A stretch of 33,261 nucleotides of DNA, from contig JAFGNB010000126.1 of assembly GCA_016927235.1 (NCBI GenBank), positions 1 through 33,261 on the forward strand, written 5' to 3'. The notes under the pieces are model-generated. The model had not been told where the DNA came from and searched no databases. It saw nothing but the letters and a program-made list of their open reading frames with translations. Numbering within the stretch: position 1 is the stretch's first letter; each line of letters opens with the position of its first letter. Made by a program: the position numbers and the translations under genes. This stretch comes from Chitinispirillaceae bacterium (GTDB lineage: Bacteria > Fibrobacterota > Chitinivibrionia > Chitinivibrionales > Chitinispirillaceae). Positions 3,664 to 10,748 of this stretch are shown here, piece by piece.

Positions 3664-3849
3664 ATGGAAGAGCATAGACCTTTGACCAAAGAAATTGAAG
3701 CACGTTCGCAGCCCAATCGTTACCTCATCCATAAATATTGGGGAAGAAAACCGGCACATCTCATTGCCGAATTTATTCACGCGTATACTTGTGCTCTAAT
3801 GGTTGCAAGCGCTTCAACAACGGAGGCTTGTGGTGAAGCGCACGAATAA
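3664..3849 (+). pseudogene. N-terminal fragment of a site-specific DNA methylase
   Basis: The first about 42 codons (3664-3789) read like the conserved N-terminus of a family of site-specific DNA methyltransferases, with the signature RYLIHKYWGRKPAHLIAEF. Complete members continue into the SAM-binding DPFxGSG motif and the catalytic motif over several hundred residues. Here the similarity stops after IHAYT, and about 18 unrelated codons lead to a stop at 3847-3849. These last codons overlap the start of the next gene, as a methylase tail overlapping a following endonuclease gene would. I infer a large internal deletion that kept only the two ends. No Shine-Dalgarno sequence precedes the ATG. 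The methylase identification comes from family knowledge and has not been searched. Confidence 0.6.
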
Positions 3850-5410
3850 GTGTAAACCAGCCGTACAATTACTACGAAAAAAAAGAAGTCATTACCGTGC
3901 CTTTAAACATCTCGCGTTCATTGGAATCAGATGTAAACTCGACGTGTGGATCGGGACCGTCTACTGGGAAAACGGCGACGGATCCGATACATTGAAAAAA
4001 CTGGTGACTATGCCCCACGAAGCGATCAGCCGAGTCATTAAGAATGCGGATCTGACAAAGCGCGTTGGTATGGTATGGCTTCATCGGCATATGCCGTTAT
4101 ACCACTTCGAAATCGTTGAGACGAACGATATTTCCCGGACTGCGGTAAAAAACGGCCGGGTAATGGCGAAATTGTTTCCGGAAATACGGAGTATCGTCGT
4201 GGGAAGCGACCGTTTATGTACCATGGTAAGAAAACAGTGCAGAACGGGACTTTGGGGTTACTGGGACACGATTACCTTCAGAGATCTTGAAGAATATTTC
4301 GATTCATTTGGTGCGAAAACAGTTACCCTCCAAAAAATGGACCTCCAACAGGAATCGCGTATTTTTCAGGAAAATGCCGTCGTCGCAAAAAGAGCGGTAG
4401 ATTTCCGGAAGGGTTTGTCACCGGAGAAGCCTCGGCACTGTACCCTGCAATTAATCGCCCCAAAAATCACTAAGGAAATCAGACCTGGACAATTTGTCGC
4501 TATTGTAGAAGAGTCCATACCGCCCATCAGATATAAGACGATGACGTATAACGGCACCGCGCTTCCTCCAATGAAAAATGTGGCAGGTTTTTCAAAGGTG
4601 TATCTGCTCAGGCGCCCTTTCGGAGTTCATAGAATTCACTCGATAGGGTCGAAAGTCAGTCGCTTCAAATACACTCATAACATACCCGCGTCGTTTCTTT
4701 CTCTAGTCAAGGGTGGATATCGAGACCGATTCGATATTCTGTTCAAGATTGTCGGGAGGGGAAGCGAAGCCCTTTCCAATTTGAAAGAAGGCGCAGTCAT
4801 CTCCGTTCTGGGACCTTTGGGAAACGGCATCAGCGATGTTCCTCTTACGGTAAAACTATGTTATTTGATAGCGGGGGGCATTGGAATCGCGCCGCTCTAT
4901 TCGATTGCCGAGCATTTGCGGTGGCTTGGAATCCGTGTGATATTGATCGCCGGCGCCGAGGAGAACCTCCCCTTCTCCTTTCAAGAGGAGGATGCTCAGC
5001 TGGAAGCCGCGTACGCTGACGCAGGAGTTAAATCCCTTGTGCGGGAATTCGAAGAGATCGGCTGCGACGTCAAAACGGTCACGGCATCAAAAGGGGAAGG
5101 CACTTCGGTTGATGAATTGGAGCGGGTGCTTGAGAAGGATAAAACAAGCAGCGATTTTCAAAAGGAACGCGTGCGCATGTATTCCTGCGGTCCGTGGAAC
5201 ATGATGAAGGCCGTCGCCGCAATAGCAAAAAGAGAAGGGATAGAATGTGAAGTGCTGTTGGAAAAGCGGATGGCGTGTTGCGTCGGTACCTGTCTGTCGT
5301 GCGTATGCGACGCGTACGAAAAGCGTGGTGAAGAGTATACGGATAGAGTGATTCATAAAAAAGTATGCTCGGACGGACCCGTCTTTAATTCGAAAGAAGT
5401 TGTATGGTAA
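3833..5410 (+). CDS. pyrK: PyrK-type electron transfer protein fused to a restriction-endonuclease-like N-terminus
   Basis: 525 aa from GTG 3833, chosen because GGAGG (3822-3826) lies 6 nt upstream; an in-frame TTG at 3803 would be longer. Residues about 169-525 are the iron-sulfur/FAD subunit of class 1B dihydroorotate dehydrogenase, which passes electrons from PyrD's FMN to NAD. Visible features are RPGQF (218-222), the flavin-site RRPF (260-263), LGPLGNG, the NAD-site GGIGIAP (348-354), and the [2Fe-2S] cysteines 482, 487, 490 and 512 in the MACCVGTCLSCVC region. pyrD follows 12 bp downstream. Residues 1 to about 165 are foreign to PyrK and resemble a methylase-associated restriction endonuclease (separate entry). 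An in-frame ATG at 4337 (Met169) could be the original pyrK start, but it lacks a Shine-Dalgarno. The PyrK part, about 355 aa, is longer than the usual 230-290 because of extra sequence around residues 227-300. Confidence 0.85.
   Translation: MKRTNKCKPAVQLLRKKRSHYRAFKHLAFIGIRCKLDVWIGTVYWENGDGSDTLKKLVTMPHEAISRVIKNADLTKRVGMVWLHRHMPLYHFEIVETNDISRTAVKNGRVMAKLFPEIRSIVVGSDRLCTMVRKQCRTGLWGYWDTITFRDLEEYFDSFGAKTVTLQKMDLQQESRIFQENAVVAKRAVDFRKGLSPEKPRHCTLQLIAPKITKEIRPGQFVAIVEESIPPIRYKTMTYNGTALPPMKNVAGFSKVYLLRRPFGVHRIHSIGSKVSRFKYTHNIPASFLSLVKGGYRDRFDILFKIVGRGSEALSNLKEGAVISVLGPLGNGISDVPLTVKLCYLIAGGIGIAPLYSIAEHLRWLGIRVILIAGAEENLPFSFQEEDAQLEAAYADAGVKSLVREFEEIGCDVKTVTASKGEGTSVDELERVLEKDKTSSDFQKERVRMYSCGPWNMMKAVAAIAKREGIECEVLLEKRMACCVGTCLSCVCDAYEKRGEEYTDRVIHKKVCSDGPVFNSKEVVW
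3884..4312 (+). pseudogene. Restriction-endonuclease-like domain remnant within the pyrK fusion
   Basis: Residues about 18-160 of the fused protein carry the pattern SHYRAFKHLAFIGIRCKLDV...WIG, then VGMVWLHRHMPLYHFEIVET, then a segment with LFPEIRSIVVGSDR, and finally ITFRDLEEYF. From memory, this order matches PD-(D/E)XK-like endonucleases encoded next to DNA methylases: an xDVWI segment, a catalytic IDVLWL strand, the FEVE strand, a P-N-I-x-x-x-IVA strand with an Arg pair, and an I-x-F-x-x-L-x-x-Y helix. Where those proteins have Asp before VLWL, this one has Gly (VGMVWL), which suggests loss of catalysis. The adjacent methylase stub supports a former restriction-modification pair. This is inference from pattern and context. 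Confidence 0.5.
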
Positions 5411-5422
5411 GGAATTGATACT

Positions 5423-6391
5423 ATGCTGAAGACCGATCTTGTAACAAATCTTGCCGGCTTAAAATTACGAACCCCGCTGTTACTGGCTTCGGGGGTGGTA
5501 GGGTATGCCGTTGAGTATGAAAAGATTGATGAAATCGATTTTAACAGTCTCGGCGGGATCGTGCTGAAAGGGGTTAATCTGCACGGAAAAAAAGGGAATC
5601 CCCAACCTCGAATTGTGGACTCGACGGTTGGAATTATTAATTCAATCGGCCTTGAAAACCCTGGAATTTATAAGATGATTGATGAAATATTACCTAAAAT
5701 ACCGAGAAAGACATCCATTATCGCGAATATATTCGGGGATACGGTGCAGGAATACGGCGAAGTTGCCGAAGTAGTAAATTCTATCAGTGAAATTCATGCG
5801 ATAGAAGTAAATATTTCATGCCCGAATGTTAAACGAGGCGGCAGACTGTTCGGCTCCGACCCTTCTATCACAAGGGAAGTTTTACATACTGTAAGGCAGG
5901 CATACCATAATCGACCGGTCATTGCGAAGCTTTCCCCCGGCGTCACCGACATCACTGAAATTGCCAAGGCGGCGGTCGACGGTGGGGCGGACGTCATCTC
6001 TCTTATCAATACCATGCCTGCACTGGCAGTGACCCTTCACACTAAGCCCCCCAAGCCTGTTCTCGGCAACATCGTCGGAGGCCTTTCGGGGCCCGCCATA
6101 AAACCGATCGGATTGGCAAAGGTCTATCAGGTCCATCAGTTTTTTAAGCATGCGGGAATAGCCGTTCCGATTATTGGAATCGGTGGAATCATGGATGCCA
6201 CGGATGTACTGGAATACATGGCTGTCGGTGCACGTGCCGTTCAATTAGGGACGGTAATGTTCACCAATTATCATGCACATACCCAAATTGCCAGAGGAAT
6301 AGAAGAATACTTCAAGAAGCACGGCTTTTCTTCAAAAAAAACAGATAAGTTTGTGGGCTCTGTTCTCCGTTCGGATCACCCGACTCCATAA
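5423..6391 (+). CDS. pyrD: Dihydroorotate dehydrogenase, catalytic subunit (class 1B)
   Basis: 322 aa, a complete FMN-dependent TIM barrel that oxidises dihydroorotate to orotate in pyrimidine synthesis. Visible family features are TPLLLASGVVG (17-27), the FMN-contacting Lys in VLKGV (Lys49), NSIGLENPG (73-81), the catalytic-loop Cys133 in NISCPNVKRGG, and the C-terminal phosphate-binding region IGIGGIMDATDVLEYMAVGA followed by RAVQLGT. A catalytic Cys rather than Ser marks class 1, and the adjacent pyrK points to the NAD-linked 1B heterotetramer. The Shine-Dalgarno AAGGAA precedes the ATG. No other pyr genes lie in the window. The pyrKD pair is lower in GC than most of the window and is probably transcribed from upstream of, or through, the restriction-modification remnant. 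Confidence 0.95.
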   Translation: MLKTDLVTNLAGLKLRTPLLLASGVVGYAVEYEKIDEIDFNSLGGIVLKGVNLHGKKGNPQPRIVDSTVGIINSIGLENPGIYKMIDEILPKIPRKTSIIANIFGDTVQEYGEVAEVVNSISEIHAIEVNISCPNVKRGGRLFGSDPSITREVLHTVRQAYHNRPVIAKLSPGVTDITEIAKAAVDGGADVISLINTMPALAVTLHTKPPKPVLGNIVGGLSGPAIKPIGLAKVYQVHQFFKHAGIAVPIIGIGGIMDATDVLEYMAVGARAVQLGTVMFTNYHAHTQIARGIEEYFKKHGFSSKKTDKFVGSVLRSDHPTP

Positions 6392-6455: not shown

Positions 6456-6518
6456 TTCCTGATTTTCGGAATAAAGTTCCCGAAATTAATAATCCGTTTC
6501 CCTCACTCAACGTAAATG
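6456..6518 (+). repeat. Dispersed intergenic repeat, copy 1
   Basis: A 63-bp segment beginning TTCCTGATTTTCGGAATA matches copy 2 at 9645-9707 at 55 of 63 positions without gaps. Both copies lie in non-coding DNA in the same orientation. Inside is an imperfect inverted repeat, TTTCGG-AA against TTCCCGAAA, that could form a small hairpin. This copy lies between pyrD and the small ORF at 6614. Confidence 0.7.
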
Positions 6519-6525
6519 TATCCTT

Positions 6526-6554
6526 TAATTAGTGGCTGTTTACCCCGGTATAAT
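6526..6554 (+). promoter_or_regulatory. Possible promoter of the small-ORF cluster
   Basis: A perfect -10 hexamer TATAAT lies at 6549-6554, about 59 bp upstream of the 62-codon ORF. The sequence at the -35 position (around 6526-6531, TAATTA) is poor, so the call rests on the -10 alone. Confidence 0.35.
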
Positions 6555-7142: not shown

Positions 7143-8177
7143 CTAGTCGGCAGCTCCCAGCGGGGAGATATAGGCCCATCCGTGCTGGGGTTCATCGTGT
7201 ATCGTACCGGTGACCGACCCGAAGCCGTACCAGTACTCTTTTCCGGATATTTTTTTTATCTGGTTCTTTTTGAATGCCGTTATTGCAAGCGTCATGGGAT
7301 AATGGGGGGCGACGACCGTGTAGGAGAGCGGATATTTATTATTAGATAATTCGCTTTTCCACCAGCGGTGCAGAGTGAGTTTGAACCGGGTAATTTTTTT
7401 TAACGATCCGTCGGGACGGCTGACCATGATATAGTTGCCGGGCAACCAGGAGAGATGCTGTTTTTCTTCCGGAAAATTGGCGATAATCATATCATACCCC
7501 GATTCAGTATGCGCTACAATCCAGTCGCAATTCGACTCACCTCCTTTCCCCCAGAATTGATGAAAATGACCGTTGCCGAAAAGAGTGTCGGGATTCGCGC
7601 CGGCTGTATACATTGTTACACCGCACCGTGGAAGAATATACCAGTCGAATCTTCTTTTATCATAGTCGCTCTTCAAGACATCTCTGAAGGTGACCTGCTG
7701 TTTTTTTTGTGAAAGGTAAAAGCTCCCTTTCAGTCGAGAAAAATCGGCGGTGATAGAGATACGCGACGAAGTTGTTTCGGCGGTAATAGCGTTTCCTCCG
7801 ATTTTTTCATTGAGAGCGGAGTAATCGTGCTCGATTGTACCAAACGGCGGAATTATCGTGCTGCTTTCATGGCAATACTCTTTTGACGGCAGCGTGAGAC
7901 GGCTATAGTGGATATAATTGCCGGAAAAAAGCATAAACTTGCCGCACAGAAAGAAGAGCGCGATATACTGTTCATTTCCGGACCGGCTTTTCACTTTTGT
8001 ATAGAGGGACCAGCTTTCCGTTGTCGTGGCATGCTTTCGTTGCAGTTCGGAGAGCGGAACGGCGGACGGGGAATCGACGGCAGCGATCATGAGGGCGATG
8101 GCTCCATATTGCACCGCAACTGCCGTTTTTAAAGCGATCATTGTACTCCTGTGTTTTAATACCGTCCCGGCCGTCAT
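7143..8177 (-). CDS. Exported CrtC/AttH-like lipocalin-fold protein
   Basis: 344 aa from the ATG at 8177; the Met at codon 13 (8141) would give a cleaner signal peptide (MIALKTAVAVQYGAIALMIA, cleavage near SPSA). The mature part has motifs I associate with the CrtC/AttH lipocalin-like superfamily, which includes hydroxyneurosporene synthase and secreted hydrolase-like proteins: GNGHFHQFWGKGG, WIVAHTESGYDMIIANF and, near the C-terminus, YWYGFGSVTG and GWAYISPLG. CrtC itself hydrates carotenoids, but this family has many uncharacterised members and the substrate here is unknown. Its start overlaps the stop of the upstream sulfotransferase (ATGA), so the two form an operon and may act on the same lipid or isoprenoid. 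A run of eight A's lies within the gene (7701-7708 on the plus strand as T's). Confidence 0.65.
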   Translation of the reverse strand: MTAGTVLKHRSTMIALKTAVAVQYGAIALMIAAVDSPSAVPLSELQRKHATTTESWSLYTKVKSRSGNEQYIALFFLCGKFMLFSGNYIHYSRLTLPSKEYCHESSTIIPPFGTIEHDYSALNEKIGGNAITAETTSSRISITADFSRLKGSFYLSQKKQQVTFRDVLKSDYDKRRFDWYILPRCGVTMYTAGANPDTLFGNGHFHQFWGKGGESNCDWIVAHTESGYDMIIANFPEEKQHLSWLPGNYIMVSRPDGSLKKITRFKLTLHRWWKSELSNNKYPLSYTVVAPHYPMTLAITAFKKNQIKKISGKEYWYGFGSVTGTIHDEPQHGWAYISPLGAAD

Positions 8178-9265
8178 GATACTGACGGTTGCTGTTTTCG
8201 GGGTATATGGTGTTTCAATCGGAAACGGATACGATCACGCTGCTCTTTCGAGAGGTGGTAGCTGTTTTTTTTGTAATGCTTCAGCGATGTGATAAAACGA
8301 TCGAGATGCCGCAAATGTTCTCCGGAAAGGGTGATGCCGATTGAATTCAAGGCATGACGGATCGTATCGACGGGTCTGTCTTCCAGGTCTTCAAAACGGA
8401 TGGTGCAGTAATCGTGAGCGGGCAGCCGCTGAAGGTCTCTTTTTATTGTGCTGAGAATAGTATCGTATATCGAAATTGCGCGATCGAGGGTCGGTGTAGT
8501 ACACCCTTTACGAAGAGCGTTGCGATCCCCTTCGATTTTCCACATTCTGATAGTTGATGGTATGACCTCTGTGGGGTTTCTATAAATATGAATGAATTTT
8601 GCTCTGGGAAAGAGTTGTTTGAGATAGACGATTCGTGTCGAGTGAAAGGGATTTTTCAGGACTACTCTGCCCTTGTTCTGCATTGACAGCTTTTTACAGA
8701 AAATGGTTAACGTTTTATTCCATTCATGCCTTAAAGCATCAGGCGGCATGAAATCACATCTACTGTTAAGAAAAAAATCACTTTTTTCAGGAAAAACGAG
8801 TCTTTCCACCGGTGAAAAGGTCGTTGCACGAAAAAGAGCGAATTCGTCCTCCTGTGGTTCGTCAAGGGTTAACGAGATATTATCGGTGCTGCGCTTCGGG
8901 GGGAGCATCATCCGCAGTATGGGTGAAAGGATTTTTTTTGAGATGAAAAAACTCCCCGGCATACCTGTTTCAATCATGGAGGGAGTCTTGAATGCAGGCA
9001 GCGAATTGAAAATCTGGTGAAGAAACGTGGTTCCGGAACGCCAGTGGCCGACGATGACAACCGGATCCCGCGGACAGAGAGCATTTTGAATTTTTTTACC
9101 GTAGAAAAGCCTTTCACAAAATTCAAGCACTGAAGTTCCGAACGAATAAAGAAGCAGTACTGCAAAACGATAGATATACTTTGGATGCCGCCCCACGCCG
9201 TTACGTTTGACCAGTTTTAAAAGATTGCCGGTGGTGATGCCGGTAACAAAATATCCGCTTGCCAT
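8174..9265 (-). CDS. PAPS-dependent sulfotransferase
   Basis: 363 aa. The 5'-phosphosulfate loop GHWRSGTTFL (73-82) and the 3'-phosphate motif FIHIYRNPTEVIPST (224-238) bind PAPS. The signature DEPQEDEFAL (135-144) and KNPFHS (204-209) place it in the Sulfotransfer_3-like group of bacterial and animal-like sulfotransferases. It should transfer sulfate from PAPS to a hydroxyl on a carbohydrate, lipid or other small acceptor. There is a hydrophobic patch near residues 31-46 but no clear signal peptide. The downstream lipocalin-like gene overlaps by 4 nt, which suggests a joint pathway. An A8 run lies about 30 codons before the stop (plus-strand T's 8265-8272); slippage there would change the C-terminus. 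Confidence 0.88.
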   Translation of the reverse strand: MASGYFVTGITTGNLLKLVKRNGVGRHPKYIYRFAVLLLYSFGTSVLEFCERLFYGKKIQNALCPRDPVVIVGHWRSGTTFLHQIFNSLPAFKTPSMIETGMPGSFFISKKILSPILRMMLPPKRSTDNISLTLDEPQEDEFALFRATTFSPVERLVFPEKSDFFLNSRCDFMPPDALRHEWNKTLTIFCKKLSMQNKGRVVLKNPFHSTRIVYLKQLFPRAKFIHIYRNPTEVIPSTIRMWKIEGDRNALRKGCTTPTLDRAISIYDTILSTIKRDLQRLPAHDYCTIRFEDLEDRPVDTIRHALNSIGITLSGEHLRHLDRFITSLKHYKKNSYHLSKEQRDRIRFRLKHHIPRKQQPSVS

Positions 9266-9644: not shown

Positions 9645-9707
9645 TTCCTGATTTTCGGAATATAGTTCCCGAAATTAGTAATTCGTTTCCGTCGCTTCCC
9701 GTAAATG
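9645..9707 (+). repeat. Dispersed intergenic repeat, copy 2
   Basis: The second copy of the 63-bp element at 6456-6518 (55/63 identical), carrying the same internal imperfect hairpin around TTTCGGAA/TTCCCGAAA. The first 11 bases, TTCCTGATTTT, occur again at 9871, next to the right arm of a nearby inverted repeat. Confidence 0.7.
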
Positions 9708-9715
9708 CTTCGTTT

Positions 9716-9896
9716 GATTTAATTGGGAGATTAAAAAATCAGAGAGTTCCGTATTGCGCCAACGAAGCAACGACATCGTCAATCGGTTCCACTGAATACA
9801 ATTTACCGCGAAGGTCATCGCGTACCATCTTCCGGTGTCTGATAGGAACAAGGCCGGCGAACTACGATCCTTCCTGATTTTTCTCCCAATAAAATC
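9716..9896. repeat. Inverted repeat flanking a 151-bp segment
   Basis: Arms GATTTAATTGGGAGA (9716-9730) and TCTCCCAATAAAATC (9882-9896) are reverse complements at 14 of 15 positions. The interior has no complete gene. The layout recalls a miniature inverted-repeat element, but no target-site duplication was recognised. Confidence 0.4.
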
Positions 9897-10034
9897 ATCT
9901 TAAAAAGAGTATTCCGATAAAGGGGCGGATGGAATGAAAAACCGATCCGAATTCATCGGTTATCAAATGGGCAATCATCCGCAGAAGCGTTAAACTGCCC
10001 CGGAATGCAAAGTTTAAAAGGGGAGTGTTGCACA

Positions 10035-10748
10035 ATGAAGAAGATAGTCCATATAACTATAATGGCATGGGCAACAGCGGTAGTGATACAGTGTGCAAAT
10101 GATAAGAGTGGGGTTGTGTACAACTGGGGTACCAATGGTCCCGTTGATGTAACCACTATGGCGACTCCTGATGGCGGAAGGGTGAAAGCTGCGGAAGAGG
10201 GGCCCGTCCGCAGCGCATTTGATGAACCGGCTATCGATCTCTCCACGTTTTGCCTTGAAGTCACCGGACTGGTTGATTCCCCGTTTATTCTGACATGGGA
10301 GGAGATACTCGCGCATCCTGCAGCCTATTCAGATACAATACTCATGTACTGTGTCGAAGGATGGGAGGTATGGGGAAACTGGAAAGGTATTCTGATCAGA
10401 TCGTTACTTGAGAGAGCGCATGTTCAGACTGAAGGCAACCACATTCTGTTTGGATGTGCCGACGGCTATTCGACATCGCTGCCTATATCCTATCTTTTGA
10501 AATATGATATTATCCTGGCATACGAGGTAAACGGCTCTCCGCTTCAAGGATACGATGGTTTTCCGCTTCGGCTCATTGCTTTCGGCAAATACGGGTATAA
10601 GTGGGCGAAGTGGATCACCCGACTGGAAGTGACCGCTCAGTCCGAAACCGGCTTCTGGGAAGGCCGGGGGTATACCGATAAAGCCGATGTCCCCATTTCT
10701 CGACGACAGTATTACGAAGGAGAAGCGGCGGAACTGTTGGAGTATTAA
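10035..10748 (+). CDS. Exported molybdopterin-dependent oxidoreductase (sulfite oxidase/YedY-like fold)
   Basis: 237 aa. The start at 10035 is chosen over an in-frame ATG at 10005 because GGGGAG lies just upstream and the N-terminus then reads as a signal peptide (MKKIVHITIMAWATAVVIQC). Cys20 could be a lipidation site, although VIQC is a poor lipobox. The body is the Moco-binding oxidoreductase domain: VTGLVDSPFILTWEEILAHP, the metal-ligand Cys106 in MYCVEGWEVWGNWKG, DGYSTSLP, and the closing signature GFPLRLIAFGKYGYKWAKW. It lacks a Tat motif, unlike E. coli YedY/MsrP, and lacks the dimerisation domain of sulfite oxidases. The substrate is unknown. The next gene, 194 bp downstream, is Tat-exported, and an exported MsrA-MsrB lies within 4 kb. 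Confidence 0.85.
   Translation: MKKIVHITIMAWATAVVIQCANDKSGVVYNWGTNGPVDVTTMATPDGGRVKAAEEGPVRSAFDEPAIDLSTFCLEVTGLVDSPFILTWEEILAHPAAYSDTILMYCVEGWEVWGNWKGILIRSLLERAHVQTEGNHILFGCADGYSTSLPISYLLKYDIILAYEVNGSPLQGYDGFPLRLIAFGKYGYKWAKWITRLEVTAQSETGFWEGRGYTDKADVPISRRQYYEGEAAELLEY

Follow-up and report, generated by a model that had tools for sequence, protein, structure and literature searches.

A probable decayed restriction–modification unit fused in frame to an apparently imported PyrK in an uncultured relative of Fibrobacter

The only PyrK that we found in the genome of an uncultured relative of Fibrobacter is read in frame behind an N-terminal extension that very probably derives from a restriction nuclease, and the truncated N terminus of a DNA methyltransferase lies directly upstream. 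Taken together, the locus is likely to be a decayed restriction–modification (R–M) unit fused to an imported PyrK, the native pyrKD having been displaced. The window, by which we mean the whole 33,261-nt stretch of DNA analysed, is one contig (C229) of a metagenome-assembled genome of 4.15 Mb in 396 contigs that is 87% complete. The features on which the argument rests are as follows, with the basis of each in brackets where one applies.

3664–3789, forward strand: N-terminal remnant, 42 codons, of an HKYWxRKP-type N4/N6 DNA methyltransferase (PADLOC, tblastn, phmmer)
3790–3849, forward strand: non-homologous tail of the stub ORF (sequence)
3822–3826, forward strand: GGAGG Shine–Dalgarno-like site, 6 nt before GTG 3833 (sequence)
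3833–5410, forward strand: fused gene, nuclease-like extension plus PyrK, 525 aa from the GTG (sequence, domain matches)
3908–4318, forward strand: very probable remnant of a PDDEXK-like restriction nuclease domain, residues ~26–162, of the PADLOC REase_II PDLC03534-like family (profile, shuffles, alignment)
4067–4069, forward strand: codon of the catalytic Asp (98% of the family), here Gly (GGT) (family alignment)
4109–4117, forward strand: ExE motif, first Glu retained (4109–4111), second Glu (95% of the family) replaced by Val (4115–4117)
4337–5407, forward strand: PyrK, the electron-transfer subunit of DHOD-B, with unusual inserts in the FAD and NAD domains (profiles, alignment, PDB)
5276–5368, forward strand: [2Fe-2S] cysteine region, C482, C487, C490 and C512 of the fusion, all four conserved
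5423–6391, forward strand: pyrD, class 1B dihydroorotate dehydrogenase (domain match, relatives)

Results

The stub ORF (3664–3849) encodes 61 aa and opens with MEEHRPLTKEIEARSQPNRYLIHKYWGRKPAHLIAEFIHAYT. It carries the HKYWxRKP N-terminal motif of N4/N6 DNA methyltransferases and matches positions 6–40 of the PADLOC profile MTase_II PDLC03367 (E 2.9e-6), plasmid DNA methyltransferases by tblastn (48–49% identity over 41–42 aa; E 3e-7 and 6e-7) and, by phmmer, the viral-contig protein L216 (P ~1e-8); there was also a weak match to Pfam DUF1156 (E 0.013). Likeness to methyltransferases stops at ...EFIHAYT (3789), where homologues go on into the SAM-binding motif GD.VL.PF.GSG, and the frame terminates 20 codons later, at 3849, having neither a SAM motif (PFxGSG) nor a catalytic (D/N/S)PP(Y/F). 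Set against methyltransferases of this type (PDLC03367; Thiospirochaeta WP_246745129, L216), the stub is alike over the first ~42 residues and has lost everything from motif I onward, as the initial annotation had claimed in describing a methylase-like N terminus that ends after about 42 codons. Among relatives' PDLC03367 loci we found no adjoining nuclease of the extension's type. The neighbours of the Thiospirochaeta and Kurthia methylases include AAA and DUF2357 genes but not this nuclease.

The stop codon of the stub (3847–3849) overlaps the start of the fused gene, the two ORFs sharing 17 nt, and translation of the one may be coupled to that of the other. The fused frame is open from 3800, with GTG 3833 as its probable start. 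Over the extension it contains no stop in 168 codons, as against seven in each other forward frame, and third-position GC is similar in the extension (0.51), PyrK (0.54) and pyrD (0.48). The endonuclease-like part had been described as having its own GGAGG/GTG start about 100 bp after the methylase; the GGAGG and GTG are confirmed and nuclease-like residues appear some 100–120 bp on, but the GTG lies only 44 bp after methylase codon 42. The further claim of a stop-free reading from the extension into a PyrK with intact cysteines held in full, all four cysteines being kept.

Beyond the extension, the protein has the NAD-binding motif, four [2Fe-2S] cysteines and adjacent pyrD that identify a PyrK, and it matches DHODB_Fe-S_bind (E 2.8e-11), NAD_binding_1 (E 1.7e-6), the NCBIfam PyrK model (1.7e-31) and the PyrK of PDB 1ep1 (8e-20). 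It resembles PDB 1EP1/5KSW in its GG(I)GxxP NAD-binding motif, its cysteines and its pyrK–pyrD gene order, and differs from them in the ~165-residue N-terminal extension, ~50 residues of FAD-domain inserts and smaller inserts elsewhere. The inserts without counterpart in relatives comprise about 13, 12 and 25 residues in the FAD domain, with more in the NAD and FeS parts. The PyrKD of the window is presumed to be enzymatically active.

With the extension itself as query, no match was obtained in 40 relatives or in plasmids, phages, viral contigs, PDB, Pfam, NCBIfam or PHROGs. A weak match to PADLOC PDLC03223 (E 0.0047) was treated as chance: that profile describes a methyltransferase and scores mainly through its two conserved ends, whereas the extension matched the part in between. 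The initial annotation had named two alternatives, that the extension is a domain normally found in PyrK orthologues or that relatives carry it with no methylase close by. Neither was borne out: the extension is absent from the PyrKs of 41 relatives and from those found in 168 genomes of the phylum, and none of the protein families searched contains it.

Kinship with nucleases emerged at the level of the family. Our first family query was a consensus of a restriction-nuclease family, used only as a probe, and the hypothesis thus preceded the test. The probe matches real proteins, namely PADLOC REase_II PDLC03534 and 175 plasmid records, several of them annotated as type II restriction endonucleases, and a scan with two short family members from the phylum added 80 further loci. 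An ORF with methyltransferase-like motifs lies within 600 bp on the same strand at 29 of 81 family loci in genome and viral contigs. Against a profile built from 86 family domains, the extension scores 11.6–11.9 bits (single-sequence P 1.1e-5), a score reached by none of 20,000 shuffles, and it is the top scorer among ~2,600 ORFs outside the nuclease family. Its identity to the family is only ~18%, in the twilight zone, and hhalign gave a probability of only 14%. In the alignment, the active-site strands and the IT(F/Y)..L motif at the C terminus stay in register, and the extension retains H26, W82, P88, E93 (the first E of FEVE) and R127. We consider it very probable that the extension is the remnant of a winged-helix/PDDEXK-like restriction-nuclease family. 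The Asp-to-Gly change already proposed for the presumed catalytic strand was located at codon 4067–4069 and is accompanied by loss of a second acid, so the extension would be not an active nuclease but only a derivative of one.

Structure prediction, which had been suggested together with alignment to methylase-adjacent endonucleases, gave no independent confirmation of the fold. The model of one family member, built from that member's own alignment, reached pLDDT 91, and its weak structural matches were to winged helices over the first half and to the PDDEXK proteins BsoBI, YaeQ and EcoT38I over the second, none with E <0.001. Modelled with the family alignment, the extension has the same order of strands and helices as the family, but at pLDDT 66 and with no PDB match, and a fold search with this model gave nothing usable. 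Rows from plasmid records were left out of the model input. The N-terminal winged helix of the family (short subfamily) is missing, the extension starting at the nuclease core. In comparison with PDLC03534-like winged-helix plus PDDEXK type II endonucleases (e.g. L108, L110, L125 and the nuclease domain of L216), the extension shares the order of H, G, W strand, FE(V/I), R and C-terminal I-T-F/Y..L and the location beside a methyltransferase, whereas it has the catalytic Asp and second Glu replaced, no winged helix and no stop codon, and is fused to PyrK.

No DNA methylase is annotated next to the long plasmid members (~420 aa) of the family annotated as type II restriction endonucleases (L096, L097, L099, L100, L101, L102) within the retrieved regions, and genes for handling copper or other metals lie near about six of the eight loci retrieved; these members may not be ordinary restriction enzymes.

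Methylase and nuclease types like those of the window occur together in L216, a single-chain methylase–nuclease of 845 aa from a viral contig. It has an HKYWARKP methylase with PPIYMIHKYWARKPHNVVEEYI near its start and ends in a nuclease domain of the extension's family (P ~1e-12 to the profile). The extension aligns in register with this domain over ~105 residues (z 4.1 against shuffles; 21 of 5,000 shuffles were equally good). The joining of both types in one protein indicates that they travel together, and this raises the prior that the window holds one collapsed R–M unit.

The pyrKD operon lies in a stretch of unusual composition. GC is 0.42–0.53, mostly <0.50, from ~3 to 11 kb of the window and mostly 0.50–0.62 elsewhere. 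From 19.2 kb onward the contig is syntenic with same-genus contigs, which shows that it is not simply foreign; from 1 to ~19 kb there is no such synteny. PyrD is 62–75% identical among relatives, whereas the PyrD of the window is only 39–46% identical to all of them, including those of the same genus. In both same-genus genomes (L200, L201), a long TPR gene and alkD flank a canonical pyrKD. At the corresponding native site of the host (G000:C71, L238, 9662–9943), the TPR gene and alkD, which are 82% and 79% identical to those of the nearest relative, are separated by ~280 bp, and this gap contains no pyrKD. A canonical PyrD query of the assembly matched only the window copy, and no second PyrK was found in this assembly, from which, at 87% completeness, another pyrKD could be missing. 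A weak PyrK match on contig C63 was rejected as a second PyrK; this 443-codon frame has 28% identity and is probably an NqrF-like reductase. Its position in the low-GC stretch and the loss of the native genes from their former site make the pyrKD of the window look foreign, and it seems that the imported operon, with its dead-nuclease leader, displaced the native one. Our search of 168 genomes of the phylum for a donor of pyrKD found none, and no intact relative of this exact R–M unit was found.

Besides pyrKD, the low-GC stretch encodes a sulfotransferase (8177–9265), small ORFs and, at 10005–10748, an ORF that appears molybdopterin oxidoreductase-like. A 75-nt direct repeat, 84% identical between its intergenic copies at 6456–6530 and 9645–9719, flanks 3.2 kb just downstream of pyrD, and its 21-nt core was unmatched in shuffles. 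The two sites may mark the limits of a small element, mobile or intergenic, or be two copies of one.

Discussion

The initial reading, that an R–M pair upstream of pyrKD decayed to leave an N-terminal extension, is upheld by a clear methylase stub and a distant but significant nuclease kinship. We propose that a type II R–M unit, with an HKYWxRKP-type methyltransferase and a PDDEXK-like nuclease in one protein or in neighbouring genes, came to lie upstream of a pyrKD operon. A deletion would have removed the methylase beyond codon 42 together with the N-terminal part of the nuclease, and loss of the nuclease stop codon would have let translation run on in frame from the dead domain into PyrK. 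PyrK translation would now begin at the ribosome site of the nuclease (3822–3833), fixing the fused frame, and this dependence would prevent stops and frameshifts from accumulating in the ~165-residue extension despite the loss of its catalytic residues. Catalytic mutations are to be expected here, as the methylase that protects host DNA has been lost. The whole block lies in the low-GC, apparently imported stretch, and its pyrKD would have displaced the native genes. The R–M pair could have inserted either in the host or already in the donor, and we infer both the order of events and their assignment to donor or recipient.

The extension is most likely scar tissue, probably without function, that carries the start signal, and we favour this over a co-opted domain. 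It is unlikely that a dead nuclease fold was kept for nucleic-acid binding, for tethering or stabilising PyrKD, or for autoregulation. The frame has stayed open over 168 codons despite strong divergence, several structural positions of the family were kept while the catalytic ones changed, and no PyrK other than the fused one was found in the assembly, all of which would fit such a role; the downstream PyrK, however, enforces an open frame anyway, the extension lacks the family's winged helix and there is no second genome with the fusion to show selection. Recruitment of the domain into dihydroorotate dehydrogenase B as a functional component, perhaps one that binds nucleic acid in autoregulation or one that serves in assembly, is on our assessment improbable. 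A fusion protein might also not be made at all, with PyrK translated from the nearest internal start, ATG 4337, which lies near the beginning of relatives' PyrK proteins, and the upstream frame a silent scar. We give this little credence, as no Shine–Dalgarno site precedes 4337 whereas GTG 3833 has one, and a silent scar should gather stops of the kind found in the other forward frames.

Scar tissue of nuclease origin also has to be weighed against an extension unrelated to nucleases, that is, a lineage-specific N-terminal domain of the donor's PyrK beside which the methylase stub is a coincidence. The weak pairwise similarity, the lack of any database family covering the region and the other unusual inserts of this PyrK could all be read in this way, but the profile significance, an in-register alignment that takes in the active-site strands and the terminal IT(F/Y)..L motif, the stub directly upstream and the co-occurrence of both parts in L216 leave it only a small probability. 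An assembly or binning artefact joining unrelated sequences is very improbable: the genome is fragmented into many contigs and the first 19 kb of the window are not syntenic with the genus, yet the reading continues in frame, third-position GC is alike across extension, PyrK and pyrD, the contig backbone belongs to the genus and pyrKD is missing from its native site, as would be expected after displacement.

R–M units move and decay, and their usual remnants are solitary genes or pseudogenes. As mobile elements they insert into and rearrange genomes (PMC3874152); the window likewise holds what is probably a decayed R–M pair, next to host genes in a region that varies, with the difference that here the remnant has entered the reading frame of a core metabolic enzyme. 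The literature that we searched, in which few subscription journals are represented, held no account of PyrK or any other metabolic enzyme joined to the remains of a restriction nuclease.

In this organism, a third of the only PyrK found, together with its probable start signal, comes from the remnant, on an operon that apparently replaced the native one. If co-option were true, a selfish R–M element would have been domesticated by core metabolism. If instead the favoured account of a decayed, fused R–M unit is true, it describes a route by which selfish DNA may become locked into a core metabolic protein without prior usefulness.
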